The notes below the pieces were generated by a model, which worked only from the letters and a program-made list of their open reading frames with translations, did no database searches and was not told the DNA's origin. From Peptococcaceae bacterium BRH_c8a (GTDB taxonomy: Bacteria > Bacillota > Desulfotomaculia > Desulfotomaculales > Desulfallaceae), in NCBI GenBank assembly GCA_000961575.1, contig LADP01000021.1, positions 1 through 64,000 on the forward strand: DNA of 64,000 nucleotides, in the 5' to 3' direction. Both the position numbers and the translations under genes were made by a program. The first letter of the stretch is position 1; every line of letters begins with the position of its first letter. Below are positions 5,899 through 57,137 of this stretch, piece after piece.

Positions 5899-6992
5899 TT
5901 GCCTTTAATTCCTCTGTTTTTTATTAATGCTATCCCCAGCAGCGCCGCCGGGAAACCGAATTCGAAGGTGGACAAGGCGTAAAAGGGCCAGTAGTGGGCG
6001 ATAAAACCAAACATTTCTAACGTGTTTCCGGCTATATTGATCGAAAGTGCCGTCAAAATGATCCCCACGGGCAGCACCAGCGGGCGGTAACTCTTAAGTT
6101 GCAGCAGTTGGGCGCTGCCCAGAACGATAATATAATAAAAAAAGGTTACCTTAAACAGGCCTCCCGCTACCCACACCGTCATGATTAACGGTTCCGGCCG
6201 CTCAATAACCCTGGCTAATGCAATTACCCGGGTCACGTTTAAGATGGGATAATTCATATTAGCCAAACCAGGCCCGAACACTGCCAGGCCCACGACCACC
6301 AGTAAAAAAAATATTAGCCCTAAAATAATGAATGTAAGGATTACAATTTTTCCGGCCTCCCCCGGTTTGGCCAGGAAGGGGATAACCATGGCAAAAGCAA
6401 TAATTTCACCATGCCAAGCCCAAGGAGCCAGCGAGCCCTTGAAAATTTCCAATCCGCCGGCCTCCAGCACGGGTTGAAACTTGGTCAGATCCATCTCGGG
6501 TATGACTAACAGAAACGTTAGCACCAGGGACACCATAATCCAGGGGAAAAAAATTTGGTTGGATCGGGCCAGCACCTCCAAGCCCAGTTTAATGATATAG
6601 GCGCTGATGGACAGGGCTATAGCGTTAACAGCAGTGATGGGAGTGCCGATTAAAAAAACGTCCACTAGAAAACCCCCGTACTCCCTGGTCATGATCGAAG
6701 TAATATGCGTAAAATATAGCAGGTACAAAAGCCCCAGGGCTTTACCGGGCCACCGGCCTATAATGTCCTCCAGGTATTGAATGAGTGTTTGGCCCGGATA
6801 CAGGGAGCTTAGCTTCACCGTAATCCAGGCTATGGGCAGCCCCAGCATGGTGGCCAGCAGTGCTGACAACCAACCGTCATGTCCGGCCTGGGCAGCCATG
6901 ATGGCCGGGGCGCTTAGTAAGGCCGTGGCGGCAACCATAATCACATTCAGGAATACGGCCTGCCAGGCGTCAATTTTGCCTCCTTCCAGCAT
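5895..6992 (-). CDS. Spore germination permease-like subunit (GerAB family), locus 1
   Basis: A ten-helix GerAB protein of 365 residues from the ATG at 6992 (MLEGGKID). That start lies eight bases after a GGGTGG Shine-Dalgarno and gives exactly the length of the locus 3 paralogue, which begins MLEQGKIS. A GTG at 7004 and an ATG at 6998 are in frame but poorly spaced. Shared features with the locus 3 AB include YPGQTLIQYLE, GLEVLARSNQ, and YRPLVLPVGIILTALSI near the C terminus. The gene overlaps the end of gerAA by 23 bases and the start of gerAC by four, so A, B and C are coupled. Confidence 0.92.
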   Translation of the reverse strand: MLEGGKIDAWQAVFLNVIMVAATALLSAPAIMAAQAGHDGWLSALLATMLGLPIAWITVKLSSLYPGQTLIQYLEDIIGRWPGKALGLLYLLYFTHITSIMTREYGGFLVDVFLIGTPITAVNAIALSISAYIIKLGLEVLARSNQIFFPWIMVSLVLTFLLVIPEMDLTKFQPVLEAGGLEIFKGSLAPWAWHGEIIAFAMVIPFLAKPGEAGKIVILTFIILGLIFFLLVVVGLAVFGPGLANMNYPILNVTRVIALARVIERPEPLIMTVWVAGGLFKVTFFYYIIVLGSAQLLQLKSYRPLVLPVGIILTALSINIAGNTLEMFGFIAHYWPFYALSTFEFGFPAALLGIALIKNRGIKGK

Positions 6993-8631
6993 CTGCATCA
7001 CCACCCTTTTGGGTGGTGCTTTGGGGAGGCTTGGGCCTCATCCCGGACACCTCTCGCACCGGGTTATTCTGCCCCACCAGGTGGGGGCGTTTTTTCATGG
7101 CCCACCAGGGTGCCCGTACGAACGAATCTTTTAGGTCCCCTGGAACCAGCGGGCCAATGGGGGCCAGGTAGGGCACGCCAAATGAGCGCAGGCTGGTCAT
7201 GTGTACCACGATAACGATTAGTCCCCCGATCAGCCCGAAGAGCCCGAACGAGGCGGCCAGGAACATTAGGGGAAACCGCAGCAGGCGAAAAGCGAGACTG
7301 CCGCTGTAATACACCACAAAGGAGGCCATGGCGGTAAGAGCCACCACAATGATCGTGGCACCTGCCACCAGCCCGGCCTGCACCGCAGCCTGGCCGACAA
7401 TCAACGCGGCCACAATGCTTATCGCCTGCCCCACTTGCCGGGGCAAACGGATGCCGGCCTCGCGGATGATTTCAAAAGCTATTTCCATCAGCAGGGCTTC
7501 GACAAAAACCGGGAAAGGTACGGCTTCCCGCTGGGCTGCTATGCTCAGCAACAGGGGCGTGGGCAGCATTTCCTGGTGAAAAGATATAATGGACACATAA
7601 AGTGAAGGCAGTGTCAGCGCGATAATCAAACTGCCGATGCGCAATAACCGCACAAAGGTAGTAAAAATGGACTGTTCGTAGTAATCCTCCGGCGTCTGGA
7701 TCGCTTCTACAAAAAAGTGAGGCACAGTTAACACCATGGGGGTGCCGTCCACGAAAATAGCCACCCGGCCCTCCAGCAAATTGGCGGCCACCCGGTCGGG
7801 CCGGTCGGTATAGCCTACGGTGGGAAACATGCTCATCGGGTTGTCCCGGATCAGTTCTTCAATGTAGCCCGACTCCAGGATGCCGTCAATTTTTATCCGG
7901 GCCAGCCTTTGTTTAACTTCTGTCACCAAGCCTTCGTTAACAATCCCCTTGAGATAAGCCACTGCGATATCGGTTCTGGTTACTTCTCCCAAGGTCAAGC
8001 TTTCAATTTTTAAATCTTTATTTTTGACTTTTCGTCGCAGAAGCGAGGTATTAGTGCGCAGCGTCTCCACGAAAGATTCCCGGGGCCCCCGAACCACGCC
8101 CTGAATTTGGGATTCCTCTATGGAACGGGCCTCCCAGCCCCGGCTGCCGTTAATTACGGCAGTAGCATGCCCGTCCACCAGCAGGATGGAATCACCCGAC
8201 AGGATTGCGTCCACCGCTTCTTGCAGCTTTTCAGTTTCTTTGACTTGGTGGACGCACAGACCCCTCATTTTCACATAATGCAGGGCGTTGGCCTTGGTAA
8301 TGGCGGTGTTGTCGGTAGCCGCGGGTACTTCCAGGGACAGGGCGCGCATAATCTGATCGCTTACCTGGGACTTATTGGTCAGCCCGTCGATATACACCAG
8401 GGCCAGCTTGATCTGCTCGCGTTGAGCAAAAAGAAATTCCCGGAAAACTACATCGCTGCAATCTGTAAAGATTTTTTTTAGATGACTTAAGTTTTCTTCT
8501 AAAGCAGGGCTCAAGAGCAAACTTTGGGTAGTTCGCTCTTTGTTGTCCCGGCTGCTTTCGCGGCTGTTCGGTCTCGCGTCTACCGAGCTGGTGCGTCCGG
8601 GCTTTTTGCGTCTTCGAGAGAAGAAAGCCAT
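6970..8631 (-). CDS. Germinant receptor subunit A (GerAA family), locus 1
   Basis: A 553-residue GerA-family protein. The basic N-terminal segment (MAFFSRRRKKPGR) leads to a soluble domain (about 40-300) with LVYIDGLTNKSQVS, VVRGPRESFVETLRTNTSLL and GRVAIFVDGTPMVL. The C-terminal half has membrane helices with the family signatures SFHQEMLPTPLLLSIAAQRE and FGVPYLAPIGPL. GerAA is the integral A subunit; in Bacillus it assembles into an oligomeric channel responding to germinant bound by GerAB. AAGGGGTAGATTT precedes the ATG. It is the first gene of the minus-strand AA-AB-AC-small-AB operon. A CATTATA box close to the start might be a sporulation -10, but the spacing is poor, so I do not call a promoter. 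Confidence 0.93.
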   Translation of the reverse strand: MAFFSRRRKKPGRTSSVDARPNSRESSRDNKERTTQSLLLSPALEENLSHLKKIFTDCSDVVFREFLFAQREQIKLALVYIDGLTNKSQVSDQIMRALSLEVPAATDNTAITKANALHYVKMRGLCVHQVKETEKLQEAVDAILSGDSILLVDGHATAVINGSRGWEARSIEESQIQGVVRGPRESFVETLRTNTSLLRRKVKNKDLKIESLTLGEVTRTDIAVAYLKGIVNEGLVTEVKQRLARIKIDGILESGYIEELIRDNPMSMFPTVGYTDRPDRVAANLLEGRVAIFVDGTPMVLTVPHFFVEAIQTPEDYYEQSIFTTFVRLLRIGSLIIALTLPSLYVSIISFHQEMLPTPLLLSIAAQREAVPFPVFVEALLMEIAFEIIREAGIRLPRQVGQAISIVAALIVGQAAVQAGLVAGATIIVVALTAMASFVVYYSGSLAFRLLRFPLMFLAASFGLFGLIGGLIVIVVHMTSLRSFGVPYLAPIGPLVPGDLKDSFVRAPWWAMKKRPHLVGQNNPVREVSGMRPKPPQSTTQKGGDADAGRRQN

Positions 8632-13999: not shown

Positions 14000-14015
14000 T
14001 TTTTTCACCCTTTAA

Positions 14016-14046
14016 TTGGGGACATGCCTCCGCATGAAGGTGTGTC
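14016..14046. repeat. Short GGGGACA...TGTCCC palindromic repeat
   Basis: ggggacatgcctcc ... aaggtgtgtccc is a copy of a dispersed family found at many places in the window. Left arms read GGGGACATxCCT and right arms AGGTGTGTCCCC. It lies between the DUF421 start and the gerAA of locus 2. Confidence 0.75.
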
Positions 14047-14197
14047 CCTGTCTTTGGTATGGAAATATAAATTCAGGATATCCTGTAACCACAAAAGCAT
14101 GCGGTGCAGGATTAGCCACATAAACCACATAATGCCAGGGTATATTAAACTGGTATATCCGAAGTGAAATTTATGTCCCTGCGGGGAGGTTGCATAT

Positions 14198-16189
14198 TTG
14201 TTTTCCTGGTTAAAGACACTGTCTAAATTCATCATGTATCAAAAGCCACAGCCCGCACCGTCTGTGTTTGAGTCCGGCATTGAAGACAGACCGCTGGAAG
14301 AGGGGGAAAAGGCCAAGGCCAAGGCCAAGGCTGGTGGTAACGGCGGTAGTGATACAGATAGCAACGATTCCGGCCAAGCTAACCAGGATCAACACCAGTT
14401 AAGAGATGGTGAGCAAAACAGCCGGAAAAACGGTAGCCGTAAACGGAACAGTCGGAGGGGAAAACAGCGCAACGCAGCGATACAGGAAAAATATTCAGAC
14501 AAGGTTGCAGAAAACCAGGATATAGACCAGATATTGAACCAAAAGGTTGAGCTTTCATACCGCCTGGAAGAGAACAAGCAGGTGCTGGAAAAGCTTTTTC
14601 GAGTGCCCGAAAACAAAGACGCGGTGTTCCGCAGTTTATCTATCGGTACCGAACCGCCCGCCCAGGCGATGCTGGTGTTTATCGACGGCATCACCAACGC
14701 CCAGGTGCAAAACCTGGCGGTGCTGCAGCCCCTGATGCTGCTTTCCGGCGCCCGGGATATTCGTCAAAATAGGAAAGGGGACACACCTGCTGAAGCTGGG
14801 GTATTCCTTCAGGGACAGGAATGTCCCCGATTAGGGGCCGACAGCGGGGGTGGCGAGCCAGTAAATAAGGAAACGTCCCCATTTTTAGATTTCTTTGACC
14901 GGGTGAAGCAGGCCGTATTGCCCAATAACCAGGTAGCCGAAGGGCGCACCTATGACCAGGTGGTGTATGACGTCTTAAACGGCAACAGTGCGCTGTTCAT
15001 TGAGGGGTATAACCAGGCGCTGCTGCTGGAAACCAAGGGCTGGCATTTCCGCAGCGTATCTCCTCCCCAGGTGGAAGCGGTGATCCGGGGGCCTCAGGAA
15101 GGCTTTACCGAGATGCTCCGGGTGAACACTACCCTGGTGCGCAAGATTATCCACCGTCCCTCGCTGGTGACCGAATTTGTAAAAGTCGGGGATGCTGCTC
15201 CCATGCAGTGTGCCGTGATGTATATGGCCGACATTGCCAACCCAGACCTGGTAAAGGAAGTCAAGCGGCGCCTGGAGTCTATCCGGGCCGATTATGCGCA
15301 TCAGGCCGGCCTGGTGGAACAGATGATCGAAGATAATCCATTGCACATGGTGCCTCAAGTTTTGACCACCGAGCGACCTGACCGGGTGGCCTCCAACGTG
15401 CTTGAAGGTAAGGTTGCAGTGCTGGTGGGTGGCAACCCCTTTGTCATGATTATGCCTTGCACCTTTTTTAATCTGATGCAGTCCCCGGAAGATGCCTACG
15501 TGCGCTGGCCCTTCGGAGCATTTATGAGGCTGATCAGGTACGCCGGCCTTTTCCTGGCCCTGCTGTTGCCGGCTCACTATGTGGCTATTGTAGCTTACCA
15601 CCAGGAATTTATCCCCACCGACCTGCTGATGGCTATCACCGGCGCCCGGGAAAAGGTTCCTTTCCCTTCCATCGTCGAGGTACTAATTATGGAGGCGGCT
15701 TTTGAGCTAATCCGAGAGGCCGGGGTCAGGATCCCAGGCACCATCGGAACCACCCTGGGTATTGTAGGGGCGCTGATCCTGGGCCAGGCCGCGGTAGCCG
15801 CCAACATCGTCAGCCCGATCTTGATTATCGTGGTGGCGGTGACTGCTCTGGGTTCCTTTGCCATACCCAATTACTCCTTTTCCCTATCCATCAGGTTGCT
15901 GCGCTTTGTTTATATTCTTCTTGCCTCGTTGTCCGGTCTGCTGGGTATTCTGGTGGGAGTTTTTATCCACGTGGGTGTAATGAGCACTGTGAAATCATTT
16001 GGGGTACCCTTTCTGGCCCCCGCTGCGCCGGTCACCAGAAAAGGACGCGATTATTTTCTGCGGGGCCCGGTGTGGCAGCAAGAAACCAGGCCAGATTACC
16101 TGGATCCGTTAAAAACAAAGCGCCAACCACAGATTAGCCGTGGTTGGCTTAACGGCGGCGACGGCAAGGGGGGTAAAGAGCGCTTATGA
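14198..16189 (+). CDS. Germinant receptor subunit A (GerAA family), locus 2, with an in-frame repeat insertion
   Basis: A 663-residue GerA protein, about 110 longer than its two paralogues here. The start is a TTG at 14198, eight bases after GGGGAGG. Two additions explain the length: a low-complexity Lys/Ala/Asn/Ser/Arg-rich segment (residues about 28-95, with KAKAKAGG and SRKRNSRRGKQRN), and an insert at about 193-228 (KGDTPAEAGVFLQ to VNKETSP) encoded by a copy of the dispersed GGGGACACACCT...AGGAATGTCCCC repeat. Otherwise the family features are intact: VIRGPQEGFTEMLRVNTTLV, LEGKVAVLVGGNPFV, AYHQEFIPTDLLMAITGARE and FGVPFLAPAAPV. The stop overlaps the next start by four bases. Whether the insert changes receptor behaviour is unknown; it lies between subdomains of the soluble N-terminal part. 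Confidence 0.92.
   Translation: MFSWLKTLSKFIMYQKPQPAPSVFESGIEDRPLEEGEKAKAKAKAGGNGGSDTDSNDSGQANQDQHQLRDGEQNSRKNGSRKRNSRRGKQRNAAIQEKYSDKVAENQDIDQILNQKVELSYRLEENKQVLEKLFRVPENKDAVFRSLSIGTEPPAQAMLVFIDGITNAQVQNLAVLQPLMLLSGARDIRQNRKGDTPAEAGVFLQGQECPRLGADSGGGEPVNKETSPFLDFFDRVKQAVLPNNQVAEGRTYDQVVYDVLNGNSALFIEGYNQALLLETKGWHFRSVSPPQVEAVIRGPQEGFTEMLRVNTTLVRKIIHRPSLVTEFVKVGDAAPMQCAVMYMADIANPDLVKEVKRRLESIRADYAHQAGLVEQMIEDNPLHMVPQVLTTERPDRVASNVLEGKVAVLVGGNPFVMIMPCTFFNLMQSPEDAYVRWPFGAFMRLIRYAGLFLALLLPAHYVAIVAYHQEFIPTDLLMAITGAREKVPFPSIVEVLIMEAAFELIREAGVRIPGTIGTTLGIVGALILGQAAVAANIVSPILIIVVAVTALGSFAIPNYSFSLSIRLLRFVYILLASLSGLLGILVGVFIHVGVMSTVKSFGVPFLAPAAPVTRKGRDYFLRGPVWQQETRPDYLDPLKTKRQPQISRGWLNGGDGKGGKERL
14777..14880 (+). 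repeat. Palindromic repeat copy inside the gerAA coding sequence
   Basis: GGGGACACACCTGCTGAAGC ... CAGGAATGTCCCC (14777-14828), followed by gattagggg and ending with acgtcccc at 14880. The same arrangement (acacctgctgaag, ggtatt, caggaatgtccc, actaatgggg) occurs in intergenic DNA at about 30820-30880. It is read through in frame without a stop. Confidence 0.8.
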
Positions 16190-18754: not shown

Positions 18755-18939
18755 GGGTCAGGCCCTGCAAACTTGCAAAAAAAAGCGAGTTTAATAAAAA
18801 AGTCTAGGTATCCGCTAATTTTAAATGATAAAACTAGGTAAACCAAAGGATCTCTAAAGTCCAAAATACTAAGATTCTTCGCTACGCTCGGAATGACAAT
18901 CCAATTTGCCATAATGCAAATTTACAAGGCCTGACCCCG
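18755..18939. repeat. Nested dispersed repeats: GGTCAGGCC palindrome containing a GAATCTT-type half repeat
   Basis: The left arm gggtcaggccctgcaaactt (from 18755) pairs with tttacaaggcctgacccc at the right end. This is the same arm sequence as the compact palindrome at 34693-34750. Between them lies agattcttcgctacgctc ggaatgac (18872-18897), half of another family. The arrangement suggests one repeat inserted into, or recombined with, the other. Confidence 0.7.
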
Positions 18940-19787: not shown

Positions 19788-19790
19788 ACA

Positions 19791-19866
19791 CTGGTTCAGG
19801 CTCTTAACTTATTGACTTATTGGGTAAATACAGCCAATAAGTCAATAAGTTAAGAGCCTGAACCAG
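19791..19866. repeat. Perfect 33-bp palindrome overlapping the 3' end of gerAB
   Basis: Arms at 19791-19823 and 19834-19866 are perfect reverse complements around a 10-nt loop (gtaaatacag). The right arm encodes the last residues (TGSGS) and stop codon of the gerAB at 19850-20947. Such a stem would terminate transcription or protect the 3' end. Its perfection suggests recent insertion or gene conversion. Confidence 0.85.
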
Positions 19867-20947
19867 TATATCGACCTTTTAAAACAGTTAAAACCAGGAG
19901 CATGGTGGGGGCGATGTATTCAAAAACATAGGCAAACAACGGCCAGATTTGGGCTATGTGTTCCACCAGTTCCTTTGAGTTTCCCGCCACGTATATGGAC
20001 AAGGCAGCTAAAAGCACACCCACGGGAAGCACCAGCGGACGGTAATCTTTTACATTGGCCAGTTGGGCGGCCCCAAGAACGGTGGCGTAGTAAAACAGGG
20101 CGATCTTACCAAACATGCCGATAACCCAGATAGCCACTAGCACCGCATCAATGCGCTCAATAAAGTTAGCCACGCTGACCATTCTAACCAGGGAAAAGGT
20201 GGGGAAGGTCATCCTTGCCACTACCGGGCCGAAAACTGCGGTATTAATCAAGGCGTCAGCGGTAAGGATGACCCCGATGGCCACCACGGCCATAATCGCG
20301 CAGCGCCCCCCTTCCCGGGGCCGGGCCATGAATGGCAAAAACATGGCCAGCAGGATTATTTCTCCCCGCCAGCCAGTGGGGGCCAGGGACGCGCTAATTA
20401 TAGGCATTATGCCGTTTTCCAGCACCGGGAAAAGCCTTTGTGGTTCAATTTCGTTAGCGGTCAATAAAATGGCGGTCATAAAAAGAATTATAATCAACGG
20501 CCAGGTGAACTCCATGACCCTGGCCAGTACCTCCAGCCCGCCCCGGATGGCCCAGGCACAGAGTAGAAGTATTAGCACATGGAAAACCACCAGGGGTGTT
20601 TCGGGCATGATGATGGTTATCATTAACTCACCAAATTCCCTAATGATAAAAGCATTAGTATGTACAAAATAAAAAAGATAAAATAATCCGGCAGCTTTTC
20701 CCGGCCATGTCCCCAGGGCGGTCTGCAGGTACTGGATCAGGGTTTGACCGGGATACCTTTTGCCTAAAGTGGCAATTACCAGGGCCAAGTAGATGGCCGG
20801 CAGCGTGGTTAGCAATGGAACCATCCAGGCGTCCCGCCCGGCGTCCTGGGCGGTAATAGCCGGCAAGAATACCACTGCGGTGGCGCCCACCAGGTTGATT
20901 AGCAGATAGACCGTTTGGGTACACGATATTTTTCCCTGTTCCAGCAT
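19850..20947 (-). CDS. Spore germination permease-like subunit (GerAB family), locus 3
   Basis: A 365-residue ten-helix protein, close to the first AB of locus 1. Both share MLExGKI, RYPGQTLIQYLQ, GGLEVLARVMEF, FPVLENGIMP, and YRPLVLPVGVLLAALSIYVAGN. The gene points away from gerAA/gerAC of locus 3, with about 240 bases between the starts, which is unusual because A, B and C are normally cotranscribed in that order. Its last codons lie inside a perfect palindrome, so the original C terminus may have been replaced. It probably supplies the B subunit of the locus 3 receptor from a divergent promoter. Confidence 0.9.
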   Translation of the reverse strand: MLEQGKISCTQTVYLLINLVGATAVVFLPAITAQDAGRDAWMVPLLTTLPAIYLALVIATLGKRYPGQTLIQYLQTALGTWPGKAAGLFYLFYFVHTNAFIIREFGELMITIIMPETPLVVFHVLILLLCAWAIRGGLEVLARVMEFTWPLIIILFMTAILLTANEIEPQRLFPVLENGIMPIISASLAPTGWRGEIILLAMFLPFMARPREGGRCAIMAVVAIGVILTADALINTAVFGPVVARMTFPTFSLVRMVSVANFIERIDAVLVAIWVIGMFGKIALFYYATVLGAAQLANVKDYRPLVLPVGVLLAALSIYVAGNSKELVEHIAQIWPLFAYVFEYIAPTMLLVLTVLKGRYTGSGS

Positions 20948-21191
20948 GGTTGCGAATTTCCCCTTCTGCTTTGTGCACCCTCAGGTAACGGTGCCTGTGT
21001 TGGGCTAGCAATGTAATGGTTATAATGCCCGGTGATAACTTTAATATGCCGGGTTGGATTGATGATCCAAGTAACTTAGTTTTATGGTAATGCAGAATAT
21101 AAATGACAATTTTGAAGGATATTATAAGGAATATTAATCAAGAAAACCAATGAATGTGCATTTATACTTGGGCTGTGTGGGGAGGATTTTT

Positions 21192-22844
21192 GTGGCATCC
21201 CGGCTGATCAAAAAAATATTTGGCAAGGCCCCGCAAAAAAAACCAGCCGGGCCTAAAAAAAACACTGCACAACAACCCGAGCCGGATCGGCGGATATACC
21301 GCTCCGAGGAATTAAAGCAGATGGCATTGTACCCCGGTTTGCAAGACAACCTGGAACTGTTTAAGAGCGTTTTAGGTTTAAACAATGATGTAATTTTTCG
21401 GAAGTTCCGATTGGGCGTGGCCGAACGAGTCGAGGCCGTTGTGGTTTATGTGGAAGGAATGGTAGATAAGAATCTGCTTAACAATGGCATCACCAGGCCG
21501 CTGATGCTTGAGTCCCGCCGGGAAGGATTTCATGGTGCCGGGCAGAACCTACTGGAGTTGGTTAAGGATTTTGCTGTTACCGTGGCCGACATTCACGATG
21601 TCGTCACCATGGAAGACCTGGTAAATGGCGTTCTATACGGTGATGTGGCGCTGCTCATTGATGGTCACGACACTGCCCTGCTCATTGGTGTCAGGGGTTG
21701 GGAGGCCCGCCAGATTTCCGAGCCGTCGTCCGAGGTGGTGGTGCGGGGTCCCCGGGAGGGTTTTACCGAGACCCTGCGCACCAACACTACCCTAATCCGC
21801 CGGCGCCTAAGAAGTCCCAATCTAATATTTGAAGATTATAATATCGGCCGGGTTACTAATACTGGGGTCACCGTTGCCTACATCAGGGGTATTGTTTCCC
21901 CCGACATGGTGGCTGAAGTGAAGCGGCGCTTGAAACGAATCAAAATCGACGGTATTCTGGAAAGTGGCTACCTGGAGGAATTTATTGAAGATCAAACATA
22001 CTCCCCATTTCCCCAGGTGATGCGCACCGAAAGGCCGGACCGGGTGGTCGCGGCACTGCTGGAGGGGCGAGTAGCCATACTCACCGACGGCACCCCTTTT
22101 GTTCTGATCGTTCCGGCGGAATTTGTTTCTTTAATGCAGTCCCCCGAGGATTATTACGAACGGTATGTACTGGGTACTGCGATCCGTTGGCTTAGGTACA
22201 GCGCTTTATTCATGTCGCTGCTGCTGCCGGCTCTTTATATTGCGATAACTACTTACCACCAGGAGATGATTCCCACCCGGCTTCTAATTAGCATAGCCGC
22301 CGCCCGGGAGGGGGTGCCTTTCCCGGCCTTGGTAGAGGCAGTTGTAATGGTGTTCACCTTTGAAGCACTTCGTGAGGCCGGTGTACGTCTGCCCCGGGCG
22401 GTGGGTCAGGCCGTTAGTATTGTGGGCGCCCTGGTTATCGGTCAGGCCGCCGTGCAGGCGGGCATGGTATCACCGCTGATGGTGATCGTGGTGGCCGTTA
22501 CCGGCATCGCCTCCTTTGTGAACCCGGCTTTTAACGTTGGTATCTCCATGCGTTTGCTGAGCTTCCCTTTAATGATGCTGGCCGGCGTCCTTGGATTGTT
22601 CGGGGTGATGGTGGGTGTACTGGCCATTCTCATCCACCTGGCGGGGCTGCGTTCCTTCGGGGTGCCCTACCTGGCAACACTGGCACCCCTGCACACCGGA
22701 GACCTCAAAGATGTGTTGGTGCGCGCTCCATGGTGGGCTATGGCTCGTCGTCCCGACGAGACTGCCAAGTTGAACCGCCGCCGCCAGGCCCGGGGGCTAA
22801 AACCATCCACATCAAAACCGGGTGGGCGCCAGGGGGGGGAGTGA
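21192..22844 (+). CDS. Germinant receptor subunit A (GerAA family), locus 3
   Basis: A 550-residue GerA protein. The GTG at 21192 is preferred because GGGGAGG lies seven to eight bases upstream and it gives MASRLIKKIFG, like its paralogue. An ATG at 21150 is in frame but lacks a site. Key features: VVYVEGMVDKNLLNNGI, VVRGPREGFTETLRTNTTLI, LEGRVAILTDGTPFVLIVP, TYHQEMIPTRLLISIAAARE and FGVPYLATLAPL. It is most similar to the A subunit of locus 1 (GDLKD, VRAPWWAMxRRP near the C terminus in both). Two bases separate it from gerAC, so the pair is coupled, with no gerAB between them. Confidence 0.92.
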   Translation: MASRLIKKIFGKAPQKKPAGPKKNTAQQPEPDRRIYRSEELKQMALYPGLQDNLELFKSVLGLNNDVIFRKFRLGVAERVEAVVVYVEGMVDKNLLNNGITRPLMLESRREGFHGAGQNLLELVKDFAVTVADIHDVVTMEDLVNGVLYGDVALLIDGHDTALLIGVRGWEARQISEPSSEVVVRGPREGFTETLRTNTTLIRRRLRSPNLIFEDYNIGRVTNTGVTVAYIRGIVSPDMVAEVKRRLKRIKIDGILESGYLEEFIEDQTYSPFPQVMRTERPDRVVAALLEGRVAILTDGTPFVLIVPAEFVSLMQSPEDYYERYVLGTAIRWLRYSALFMSLLLPALYIAITTYHQEMIPTRLLISIAAAREGVPFPALVEAVVMVFTFEALREAGVRLPRAVGQAVSIVGALVIGQAAVQAGMVSPLMVIVVAVTGIASFVNPAFNVGISMRLLSFPLMMLAGVLGLFGVMVGVLAILIHLAGLRSFGVPYLATLAPLHTGDLKDVLVRAPWWAMARRPDETAKLNRRRQARGLKPSTSKPGGRQGGE

Positions 22845-25534: not shown

Positions 25535-25548
25535 AGAATATTCTGTCA

Positions 25549-25616
25549 TTCAAGTTGGGGACGGTTTTTGACTTGAACTGAACTACGTTCAAGTCAAAAA
25601 CCGTCCCCAACTTGAA
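25549..25616. repeat. Perfect 30-bp palindrome between gerAB and the acyl-CoA dehydrogenase gene
   Basis: Arms 25549-25578 and 25587-25616 are perfect reverse complements around tgaactac. The arms contain ttggggacggtttttgac. It sits between two converging genes, 15 bases after one stop and 6 bases from the other, where it can serve as a two-way terminator. Confidence 0.85.
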
Positions 25617-25621
25617 TTATT

Positions 25622-26764: not shown

Positions 26765-26804
26765 CCTTATAACACTCCTTAACCTTCAAATTAAACAAAA
26801 CCCA

Positions 26805-26932
26805 GGGGACATTCCTCGACCGCAAAGCTTCGACCCTAAAACTGAGGTGTGTCCCCGTTCATTAAACTAACACACTAAACGCAGGGGACATTCCTCAACC
26901 GCAAAGCTGCGACCCTAAACCAGAGGTGTACC
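26805..26932. repeat. Two tandem GGGGACATTCCT...AGGTGTGTCCCC repeats
   Basis: Copy one is 26805-26856 and copy two 26884-26932. Both contain ccgcaaagct[t/g]cgaccctaaa between the arms. The second copy lacks the final gtcccc. They fill the gap between the thiolase and acyl-CoA dehydrogenase genes. Confidence 0.8.
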
Positions 26933-29425: not shown

Positions 29426-30760
29426 ATGATGAAGGCTACCGCGGAAAAACTGGAAAACAATGAAGTACTACTTGATGTAGAGGTTGATGCCAGCCAATTG
29501 GATCAGGCGATGGAGCAGGCTTACCGCAAATTGGTTAAGACTGTGAACGTACCGGGATTCCGCAAGGGTAAAGTCCCGCGGATGGTATTTGAAAATTTCG
29601 TGGGTAAAGCGGCCCTGTATAACGAAGCTGTAGAGATTGTTGTTCCGGAAGCATACATGCAGGCCGTTCAGGAAACCAAAGTGGAACCGGTGGCCCAGCC
29701 TAAAGTTGAACTGGTGCAGGTGGAGGAAGGTAAACCGGTAAAGTTTAAGGCTACCATTAAGGTCAAGCCAGAAGTAACTCTGGGGCAGTATGCAGGGTTA
29801 CAGGTAAGCAAGCCGGTTCTGGAAGTAGCCGACCAGGATGTAGAAAATGAATTGAAAAAGCTGCAGGATAGACATGCTCAGTTGGTGAACCTGGAAGAAG
29901 GCTCAGTGGAGCAGGGCGACATTGCCATTATAGATTTCGTCGGTCGTAAAGACGATGTGGAATTTGAGGGCGGCAAAGGGGACGATTACTCCCTGGAAAT
30001 TGGCTCCGGTACCTTCGTGCCCGGTTTTGAAGACCAGTTGGTGGGGGCGAAAATAGGCGGGAGCACCGAGATAACCGTTACCTTTCCCGAAGAATACCCC
30101 AATGAAGATCTTAAGGGCCAGGAAGTAGTATTTTCCGTAACCGTAAAAAGCGTCAAGCGCAAGGAGATTTCCGCTCTGGATGACGAGTTTGCTAAAGACG
30201 TCAGCGAGTTTGATACAATCGAAGAGCTAAAGGCCGATATCCTAAACAAGCTAAAGGAAGAAGCTGAGCAGAAGGCCAAACACCAGGTCAATAACGAAGC
30301 GGTTAAAAAGGCAGTAGAAAACGCCGAGGTAGATATCCCCGAGGAGATGGTCGACCTGCGGCTGTTGGAAATGATGGACAACATGGAAAATAGGCTGCAG
30401 GCCCAAGGACTGGACATGGAAAAATACCTTAAGTACACCAACTCGACTGTGGATGACCTTAAAAACAGCCTGCGGGATGACGCGGCCAGGGGGGTCAAGA
30501 CCACTCTGGTGCTGGAAACTATCGCTAAAGATGAAGACATTGTCGTTGGTGACGAGGACCTGGATCAGGAAATTGCCAGGATGGCCGGACATTACCAGCA
30601 GGAACCCGAGGTTTTGCGTAAAATACTAGAAGGACAGAACCAACTCGATTTTATTCGGGAAAGCCTGATGCAGCAAAAAACCATTGAGTTTATTGCTGAG
30701 AAGGCTGAATTGGTGGAAGGCACTAATCAAGAAGACACGAAACAAGCGGACGGGGAATAA
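29426..30760 (+). CDS. tig: Trigger factor, ribosome-associated chaperone and prolyl isomerase
   Basis: A 444-residue protein with the three trigger-factor domains. The N-terminal ribosome-binding domain carries the signature GFRKGKVPR (about 42-50). The FKBP-type isomerase domain (about 160-245) contains GDIAIIDFVGRKDDVEFEGG and GTFVPGFEDQLVGAKIG. The long helical C-terminal chaperone domain follows. It shields nascent chains at the ribosome exit. GGGGGAGC precedes tandem ATGs at 29426 and 29429. clpP and clpX follow on the same strand, the common tig-clpP-clpX order in Firmicutes, here separated from clpP by a terminator and a repeat. Confidence 0.96.
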   Translation: MMKATAEKLENNEVLLDVEVDASQLDQAMEQAYRKLVKTVNVPGFRKGKVPRMVFENFVGKAALYNEAVEIVVPEAYMQAVQETKVEPVAQPKVELVQVEEGKPVKFKATIKVKPEVTLGQYAGLQVSKPVLEVADQDVENELKKLQDRHAQLVNLEEGSVEQGDIAIIDFVGRKDDVEFEGGKGDDYSLEIGSGTFVPGFEDQLVGAKIGGSTEITVTFPEEYPNEDLKGQEVVFSVTVKSVKRKEISALDDEFAKDVSEFDTIEELKADILNKLKEEAEQKAKHQVNNEAVKKAVENAEVDIPEEMVDLRLLEMMDNMENRLQAQGLDMEKYLKYTNSTVDDLKNSLRDDAARGVKTTLVLETIAKDEDIVVGDEDLDQEIARMAGHYQQEPEVLRKILEGQNQLDFIRESLMQQKTIEFIAEKAELVEGTNQEDTKQADGE

Positions 30761-30819
30761 TTTGTTTGGATGGGGTTATCTTCGCACAGCCTGTAAGACC
30801 CCGCCCTCAAAGTAAAGGA

Positions 30820-30885
30820 TACACCTGCTGAAGTTTCGGTATTTCTCTGGGGCCAGGAATGTCCCAACTAATGGGGATTAACAGG
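30820..30885. repeat. Dispersed repeat, same subfamily as the copy inside gerAA
   Basis: gatacacctgctgaagtttc ... ccaggaatgtcccaactaat gggg matches the 14777-14835 copy in order and sequence, including the ctgctgaag and ggtatt segments. It lies between tig and its terminator. Confidence 0.75.
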
Positions 30886-30914
30886 CTGTAAGCTCGAAAT
30901 AAGTGCGACTAAGG

Positions 30915-34692: not shown

Positions 34693-34750
34693 GGGGTCAG
34701 GCCTTGCAAATTTGCAAAAATAATTTTGCAAATTTGCAAGGCCTGACCCC
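34693..34750. repeat. Perfect 27-bp palindrome (GGGGTCAGGCCTTGC type)
   Basis: Arms 34693-34719 and 34724-34750 are perfect reverse complements around ataa. The same arm sequence appears, spread apart, at 18755 and 18939. It lies five bases after the engB stop and can terminate the lon-engB transcript. Confidence 0.85.
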
Positions 34751-39688: not shown

Positions 39689-39711
39689 GCATATGCCTCC
39701 TTATATACATT

Positions 39712-39822
39712 GGGGACATTCCGCAACCCCAAAGTTCTAACCTCAAATTTGAGGTGTGTCCCCTTACTATAATGACATTCCTCGGCCCCAAAGTTCTGAC
39801 CCGAAATTTGAGGTGTGTCCCC
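39712..39822. repeat. Two tandem GGGGACATTCC...AGGTGTGTCCCC repeats
   Basis: Copies at 39712-39763 and 39772-39822 share ccccaaagttctxacc and aaatttgaggtgtgtcccc. They are closely related to the pair at 26805-26932 and lie upstream of lonB. Confidence 0.8.
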
Positions 39823-40052
39823 ATTCTGCATATTCAGCCTCAGTATTTGCAAAACAAGTTATATTTAGCAGTAGCTATATTCAGTATTATTATTGCTAAC
39901 TTTTGCATAATTTATCCCGTTTTCGGAAATAAAAAACCGCCTTCAGATAGGGTTCCATACGGGTTTGGCATTACCACTTGTTGGTATATAATGTGGTAAG
40001 ATACCATTTACATGGTAGTGTTCCAAATGAATTATAAAATTTTTTTGATGTT

Positions 40053-48228: not shown

Positions 48229-48272
48229 GGGACATTCAATTGGGGACATTCCTCCACGGAGGTGTGTCCCCT
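48229..48272. repeat. GGGGACATT repeat after valS
   Basis: ggggacattcaatt followed by ggggacattcctccacggag gtgtgtcccc: a doubled left arm and one right arm of the common family. Confidence 0.75.
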
Positions 48273-48454
48273 TTCCTCTACCCTCAACATACACCCAGAA
48301 AATACTTTTTTAATGTTGGTTTTAGATGTAAAAAAGCTTAACTTAACTAAGAAACTGGTCGATATAAAAAATATATGCCTTTTTTGCCGGTGAACGCAAA
48401 AACGAACATAGCAAGGAGAGTACCCCAAAAGTCAATATGGCAAACAGCCGGGAA

Positions 48455-48537
48455 TGTCATACTGAGCGTAGCGAAGAATCTAATTATTTAAGTGGCTTAT
48501 GAGATTCTTCATTGTACTACGTTTTGTTAAGAATGAC
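48455..48537. repeat. TGTCATACTGAGCG...GAATCT palindromic repeat
   Basis: tgtcatactgagcgtagcga agaatct and gagattcttcattgtactac ... gaatgac; another copy of the 44724/57062 family. With the repeat at 48229 it accounts for most of the 383-base gap before the chemoreceptor-like gene. Confidence 0.75.
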
Positions 48538-57061: not shown

Positions 57062-57137
57062 GTCATTCTGAATGAAACGAAGTGAAATAAAGAATCTTGG
57101 CTTAAAACTCAGATTCTTCGCTACGCTCAGAAATGAC
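57062..57137. repeat. GTCATTCTGAATG...AGATTCTTCGCTACG palindromic repeat
   Basis: gtcattctgaatgaaacgaa ... agaatct and agattcttcgctacgctcag aaatgac form a palindrome filling most of the radC-mreB gap. Same family as 18872, 44724 and 48455. Confidence 0.8.

Follow-up and report, generated by a model that had tools for sequence, protein, structure and literature searches.

Whether a dispersed palindromic repeat can settle inside a gene and be read as protein is the question raised by a gerAA-like gene in the 64,000-nucleotide stretch of DNA analyzed here (G000:C48:1-64000, hereafter the window), which belongs to the genome of a spore-forming, Desulfotomaculum-like bacterium, of 4.17 Mb in 48 contigs (G000). 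A sequence-only reading of the window had proposed that a mobile palindrome, also present as an intergenic copy in the same window, was inserted in frame in the coding sequence of this gene and had turned into part of the soluble domain of a receptor.

The gerAA gene and its insert

The gene corresponds to an ORF of 663 residues that stays open across the insert, the TTG at its 5' end being simply the first start codon that it offers. The features of the locus are the following:

14198..16189, forward strand: gerAA-like gene (GerA family spore germination receptor subunit), matching Pfam PF03323 GerA (E 2e-170) and PDB 6o59 and 9prb
14762..14839, forward strand: full repeat copy in gerAA, recognized by the covariance model R1 (82.4 bits, E 2e-23)
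14777..14828, forward strand: hairpin core GGGGACACACCT...AGGAATGTCCCC in gerAA, a 52-nt imperfect palindrome
14837..14890, forward strand: gerAA loop segment 3' of the repeat, single-copy and strongly diverged from the sister species
14007..14063, reverse strand: short, weak repeat copy upstream of gerAA (R1, E 3e-5), with a counterpart that likewise precedes gerAA in the sister species

The R1 model was built from 26 copies, the gerAA copy itself among them. The arms of the core lie at 14777-14788 (GGGGACACACCT) and 14817-14828 (AGGAATGTCCCC), and its 17 whole codons correspond to the peptide GDTPAEAGVFLQGQECP; one example of a tryptic peptide expected from the translated insert is GHTSCGGMSPTYER. 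The presence of a dispersed palindromic repeat in frame within gerAA was thus confirmed by blastn, by R1 and by the open ORF, and its absence from the two gerAA paralogues was also borne out, as the GerA-like ORFs at 6970-8631 and 21150-22844 have no R1 match at E<=0.01. The extent given by the sequence-only reading (14777-14880) has to be amended: the repeat spans about 14764-14836, and 14837-14880 does not hold a second copy, a search with 14824-14900 having returned only short matches of 14-24 bases (E 0.04 or worse). Likewise, the claim that the arms are the same as in the intergenic copy stands in part, since 49 nt from 14779 match 30817-30865 at 82%, but the intergenic arms are degenerate (GGATACACCT, AGGAATGTCCCA).

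Among 20 aligned GerA homologues, the repeat peptide RKGDTPAEAGVFLQGQECPRLG is present only in G001, the closest sister species and the nearest relative among the genomes compared. The segment is therefore not a conserved protein sequence of the orthologues in this alignment, and the idea that a mobile repeat has become part of a protein finds support, its mobility being suggested by the dispersal of the family and by the filled and empty sites described below. The other aligned homologues have unrelated loops, from a few to more than 30 residues long, between LQPLMLLSG and DFFDRVK; in PDB 6o59 this interval corresponds to residues 75-86. Clean insertion edges are not demonstrable in nucleotides, because the homologues without the insert are too diverged (at most about 69% protein identity) and the loop is variable anyway. 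Most simply, the insert would have entered the gene after the split from G002 and before that of G000 and G001, a scenario read from the sequence comparison. Between the two latter genomes, 355/364 nucleotides are identical upstream of the repeat, 71/73 in the repeat itself (one codon difference, which is synonymous) and 1190/1293 downstream, as opposed to just 28/42 plus 12 gap columns in the loop that adjoins the repeat. It is hardly conceivable that the segment is an ordinary, fast-evolving GerAA linker resembling the repeat by chance or composition: the loop does vary in length throughout the aligned GerA proteins, yet the segment is 88-91% identical to dispersed copies over 58-72 nt (E down to 2e-20), it is far better preserved in G001 than the adjoining loop, other genes host the same repeat family, and the blastn matches and 104 R1 copies rule out a chance similarity. 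The AF2 model of GerAA has low confidence over residues 183-230, which gives weak support to a loop because the whole model is poor (mean pLDDT 42.5).

Two more differences from G001 were observed in this gene. The loop at 14837-14890, far more diverged than its surroundings (AAGGAAACGTCCCCATTTTT here, AAGGAAACGGCAGTATATAAA in G001), looks like half a palindrome. The KAKAKA linker of GerAA (window about 14310-14335) is short here and is a long KSKAKSK run in G001 (L034).

Sequence, fold and distribution of the repeat family

A blastn search with the gerAA segment returned 67 matches in its own genome at E<=10, itself included, the best of the others being 88% identical over query positions 2-73 (E 2e-20). 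The R1 search recovered at least 104 copies at E<=0.01, a lower bound because just 150 of 1396 candidates were scored. The consensus of the 26 aligned copies is ATAAGGAAAGGGGACACACCTGCTGAAGnTTGGGTATTnCTTTGGGGACAGGAATGTCCCCAACTTATG, with two inner variants. Seven outer pairs of the stem form in 24-26 of the 26 copies, so that terminal inverted repeats, a trait of MITEs, are present; this outer stem is conserved in sequence and shows almost no covariation, as 1 of the 13 predicted pairs changed on both sides. When folded as single-stranded DNA, the gerAA copy is more stable than 200/200 shuffled sequences on either strand (z -3.4 on the forward and -4.2 on the reverse strand), and two other copies fold less strikingly (z -2.1, with 4/200 shuffles as good, and z -0.9, with 40/200).

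The family is widespread among relatives. Matches to R1 were found in 15 of the 16 genomes of the taxonomic family, own genome included (G001 124, G007 112 and G010 96, with none in G005), and the exact pattern GGGGACACACCTN{4,34}GGAATGTCCCC in 44 of the 113 genomes of the order, most often in G034 (121 cores), G001 (80), G019 (72) and G044 (70); the reversed control pattern matched 0/113. The window holds these copies outside the gerAA locus:

30802..30876, forward strand: intergenic copy to which the sequence-only reading compared gerAA, with degenerate arms (R1, E 3e-16)
26794..26871, reverse strand: family copy (R1), next to a further, incomplete one at about 26874-26929
39701..39837, reverse strand: two tandem family copies (R1)
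48231..48286, reverse strand: short family copy (R1, arm pattern)

Some intergenic copies are enclosed in a composite structure with an outer inverted repeat CACAGCCTGTAAGACCCC ... GGGATTAACAGGCTGTAAG (window 30760-30900; L136, L137). A second hairpin is often found about 110 bp from intergenic copies, likewise in G001, G007 and G010.

Search for a mobilizing enzyme

No mobilizer or transposase could be tied to the repeat family. Y1 tyrosine transposase genes are present in 15 of the 16 family genomes (87 matches in total, two of them in G000), and 30 of these loci were examined for the arm sequences GGGGACACACC and GGGGACATTCC and for R1 matches at E<=0.01. None (0/30) had any of these, the weak R1 matches at L239 (E 0.12) and L255 (E 0.18) lying above the threshold, and no link between this family and a Y1 transposase emerged at the 30 loci. 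The Y1 genes in L032, L236, L240, L250 and L251 are bounded by GGGGTCAG inverted repeats instead, and several long Y1 genes by GGGGTCAGGC. Copies flanking a Y1 gene, the hallmark of RAYT/REPtron systems, are consequently absent from the 30 loci examined of the 87, and the consensus ATAAGGAAAGGGGACAC...GTCCCCAACTTATG of the 26 copies lacks the GTAG/CGTC tetranucleotide at the foot of the stem. By eye, no target-site duplication was noticed at the filled and empty sites, where the empty-site orthologues are too diverged.

Other genes hosting the repeat

Stop-free frames were sought on both strands across the places of all 104 copies, which yielded 66 ORFs of at least 90 codons at 46 places, and Pfam was run on 20 of these 66 plus gerAA. 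In G000, 10 Pfam-supported genes host 12 of the 104 copies in frame, distributed over 11 sites: AddA (three copies at two sites), PurL, SpoIIE, RACo, GerAA, an Orn/Lys/Arg decarboxylase, RsmB, StiP, TlyA and a NuoE-like protein. Further in-frame copies, which the sequence-only reading had suggested seeking, are therefore found in nine more Pfam-supported genes of the same genome and in three more of G001, namely those of Mfd, TreY and a bPH_2 protein. NCBIfam models, applied to all these proteins except StiP, the NuoE-like protein and bPH_2, were matched above their curated cut-offs by AddA, RsmB, TlyA and the TreY of G001, and below them by PurL, SpoIIE, RACo, Mfd and GerAA, of which the stretch analyzed truncates the first two and Mfd; the decarboxylase matches are weak. 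The SpoIIE insert would be an N-terminal extension and is less certain, because the copy precedes the NCBIfam model; the sites in SpoIIE, the NuoE-like protein and TlyA are near the gene ends.

Among the relatives, at least 35 of the 80 exact cores of G001 were located and 34 re-fetched, and the stretches taken from G001, G007 and G008 contain 83 cores (38, 27 and 18, respectively), nested ones being counted separately. In G001, cores lie well inside the Pfam-supported genes of Mfd, TreY, bPH_2, the NuoE-like protein and the decarboxylase. No exact core lies well inside any Pfam-supported gene in the stretches of G007 (27 cores) and G008 (18), the closest case being a core of G008 (L336) that overlaps residues 492-509 of a nitrogenase-like ORF of 520 residues, beyond its domain. 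Since such well-inside cases are missing from these two sets of stretches, the invasion of genes may be special to one lineage.

A number of candidates were discarded. The copy is probably ahead of the true start in a nitrogenase-like gene (L152), a Clp/SppA-like gene (L150, two copies), a carboxyl transferase (L170, two copies), MinC (L184), a sigma-70-like gene (L136, antisense), an AA_kinase/PUA gene of G001 (L293) and the radical-SAM (L336) and response regulator (L334) genes of G008. It is confined to the last residues of an ABC transporter (L167) and of the nitrogenase-like ORF of L336. Other candidates were Pfam-negative: L169 (antisense), L007, L177, L187, L141, an antisense ORF in L293, L273, L279, L134, L260 and a 180-residue ORF in L322, where the copy follows an MFS gene.

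Filled and empty sites

Empty sites were demonstrated for GerAA, AddA, RsmB, the decarboxylase, RACo and TreY. The repeat peptide is present in both G000 and G001 in AddA, RsmB and the decarboxylase, and in none of the other aligned orthologues at those sites (0/6, 0/7 and 0/5, respectively). RACo is filled in G000 and in none of 6 homologues that were aligned from 5 genomes, and a RACo match at E<=1e-60 is missing from G001. Residues 14-385 and 424-1305 of AddA align to 10-380 and 380-1227 of B. subtilis AddA, which means that 38 residues were added at one point; the insert region has 33 residues versus 4 in the decarboxylase and 37 versus 12 in RsmB, and spans 168-234 versus 151-192 in RACo. 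The TreY of G001 (malto-oligosyltrehalose synthase; L296, G001:C43:13100-16600) has about 60 added residues, which hold a nested array of the family, at a place where PDB 6lcu is contiguous. In the Mfd of G001, the insert lies in a stretch of weak conservation, over which the M. smegmatis protein is shorter by several residues. The PDB alignments of PurL and TlyA stop short of the insert, StiP is without a PDB match and the NuoE-like protein was compared between G000 and G001 alone, both filled. Wherever insertion points were compared, they correspond to loops of varying length.

The sister species differ in the content of these sites. The six that were compared between G000 and G001 (gerAA, AddA twice, RsmB, the decarboxylase and the NuoE-like protein) are occupied in both genomes, and at five of them, all except gerAA, the length or the sequence pattern of the array differs. 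From stop to stop, AddA has 1444 residues in G001, 1310 in G000 and 1257 in G002; total length proves nothing by itself, because AddA reaches 1318-1404 residues in G007, G008, G009, G010 and G013, all without the repeat at these sites.

Frame, orientation and growth of the inserts

When at least 70 codons are open on each side of a copy, both sides share the same frame in 11 of 14 cases in G000 (2 of the 11, C28:93622 and C19:26351, being Pfam-negative) and, by the same criterion, in 7 of 11 cases in the stretches of G001, G007 and G008. All 14 counted sites (11 in G000 plus Mfd, TreY and bPH_2 in G001) have the repeat in sense orientation, a count that leaves aside the dropped antisense candidates L136 and L169 and a 102-residue antisense ORF in L338; if L136 or L169 were real in-gene copies, they would count against the bias. 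Stop codons do not explain this bias, because over the 104 copies the antisense frames (39, 33 and 53 open) are open at least as often as the sense ones (38, 28 and 40). The sense peptides are more hydrophilic, with mean Kyte-Doolittle values of -0.82, -0.51 and -0.75, versus 0.11, -0.25 and 0.04 for the antisense ones. All three sense frames are used (ERGHTS..GGMSPTYE, KGDTP..EECPQ and GKGTHL..RRNVPN). The arrays are often nested, with several left arms, a centre and several right arms (L-L-C-R-R), both in genes (AddA, RACo, SpoIIE) and between them; in the AddA of G001 the successive left arms are in different reading frames and the whole array is still open.

It is likely that the repeat is a non-autonomous, selfish, hairpin-forming element of the REP/TIR type that is found in frame in genes, is translated as an extra loop and is tolerated in variable loops. 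The element would insert in frame into protein-coding genes, as indicated by its dispersal, the empty sites, the retention of frame, the sense bias, the location in variable loops and the turnover of the arrays. The open frames suggest that the inserts are translated as a hydrophilic and probably unstructured extra loop. Movement may take place in the form of single-stranded hairpins, an HUH/Y1 tyrosine transposase supplied in trans being a possible agent, and a nested array could form by the insertion of a unit into the middle of a hairpin already present, or by its duplication around that middle. Selection would purge the copies that break the frame, hit a folded part or are read in antisense, and the surviving ones would be near-neutral passengers.

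Growth of the arrays could also be due mainly to replication slippage and gene conversion between hairpins rather than to transposition. This is a serious possibility, if the less likely one, since nested L-L-C-R-R arms and tandem units are found in and between genes and no cognate transposase was found at the 30 Y1 loci. Nevertheless, slippage cannot seed new sites, and the more than 100 dispersed copies and the empty orthologous sites need a dispersal step.

A co-option of the inserts, in which the repeat peptide would be a selected module such as a binding, localization or mRNA-structure element, appears improbable. The exclusive sense orientation, the joint occupation of the six sites seen in both sister genomes and the single, synonymous codon difference in the gerAA copy are what speaks for it. 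Yet, the array content differs between the sisters at both AddA sites, RsmB, the decarboxylase and the NuoE-like protein, the peptides read from the three sense frames are unrelated to each other, the host proteins are without an obvious common function, and one substitution in one sister pair cannot demonstrate selection.

Finally, the inserts might not be translated at all, the ribosome bypassing the hairpins or the insert being removed from RNA or protein. Mitochondrial byps are hairpins that the ribosome bypasses, and the inserts described here are also hairpins within conserved genes, some of them nested and long. This explanation is nevertheless very improbable: the counted inserts are in frame and free of stops, neither of which is required by bypassing, even if this is partly so by construction, as the search was for spanning ORFs without stops; the sites that were compared correspond to variable loops; and Rfam had no match (0) in the 64-kb window. 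Bypassing was discarded on the grounds that the copies with open frames on both sides did not reveal any split gene. None of the seven out-of-frame cases of G000 and of the G001, G007 and G008 stretches consists of two halves of one gene: the three of G000 and L299 are Pfam-negative on the sides tested, L324 lies between P-II and nitrogenase-like genes, L336 between nitrogenase-like and radical-SAM genes, and in L334 the copy is just 5' of a response-regulator domain.

Relation to known elements

The selfish, translated hairpin element favored here follows a principle that is already known and is not categorically new, because in-frame genic palindromes have been described in Rickettsia and, as intragenic REPs, in several species. 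In the parts of PMC10969869 and PMC3767692 that describe them, Rickettsia palindromic elements are dispersed palindromes that keep the frame of the unrelated genes in which they lie and are translated as an extra, solvent-exposed peptide. The repeat studied here resembles RPE-1 and the other RPEs in being a dispersed palindrome in frame in several unrelated genes. By their description, RPEs (100-150 bp) are set apart from it by its core unit of about 28-57 bp and by the phylum of the host; its use of all three sense frames, its nested arrays and the differences in array content between sister species also distinguish it from them.

Intragenic GTAG/CGTC REPs, as presented in sections of PMC3733652, are short palindromes that in some cases lie wholly within ORFs, with clusters encoding 43-82 residues, and their insertions are reported there in many DNA-repair genes (recBCD, recB, uvrA, UvrD/REP helicase). 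The repeat likewise hits repair genes, namely AddA at two sites and Mfd in the sister species; unlike these REPs, its consensus is without a GTAG or CGTC foot. One may speculate that hairpin elements of unrelated bacteria repeatedly settle in the repair enzymes that handle hairpins or broken forks and weaken or retune them, so that long palindromes survive and nested arrays grow in other genes of that lineage, but this is a long shot. According to the same sections of PMC3733652, the TIRs of TIRYT tyrosine transposases have a GGGGWSAS motif. The left arm GGGGACAC of the repeat fits this motif and the Y1 genes with GGGGTCAG repeats in the same bacterial family resemble the TIRYT class; unlike TIRYT TIRs, the right arm, read inwards as GGGGACAT, differs at the last base, and these arms are at 0/30 of the Y1 loci examined. 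The coding palindromes of Nematomorpha mitochondria, in the portion of PMC6649704 that deals with them, are inverted repeats inside protein-coding genes of which both arms encode conserved protein; the similarity lies in the inverted repeats in genes, and the difference in that the palindrome is here an added insert.

The host group, the short units usable in three frames, the nesting within genes, the sense-only use and the turnover at sites shared by a sister pair appear new. No description for Desulfotomaculum-type hosts was found among the leading literature results and open-licence PMC papers, and the main text of PMC3733652 has no mention of Desulfo, Firmicutes, Pelotomaculum or Clostridi. 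This would add one more bacterial lineage, unrelated to those already known, where selfish palindromic DNA has entered the sequence of conserved proteins. As two sister species are caught at different stages at identical sites, the way is open to studying the entry, growth and tolerance of inserts and to finding out which loops of a protein can take up tens of extra residues. There is also a hazard for annotation, in that ERGHTSxGGMSPTYE, KGDTPxxEECPQ and GKGTHLxRRNVPN are peptides of the repeat and not a domain.

Other repeats in the window

Palindromes of the type GGGGTCAGGCCT are located at 34693-34750 and 18915-18938; elsewhere in the genome such palindromes bound a Y1 transposase gene (L032), and they are probably a second dispersed family with its own transposase. 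A third dispersed repeat, around GATTCTTCGCTACGCTC, has copies that are 87-90% identical at 18864-18902, 48451-48489 and 57104-57132. Perfect inverted repeats of 31 and 34 nt with short loops are present at 25548-25617, which contains GGGGACGG, and at 19790-19867.
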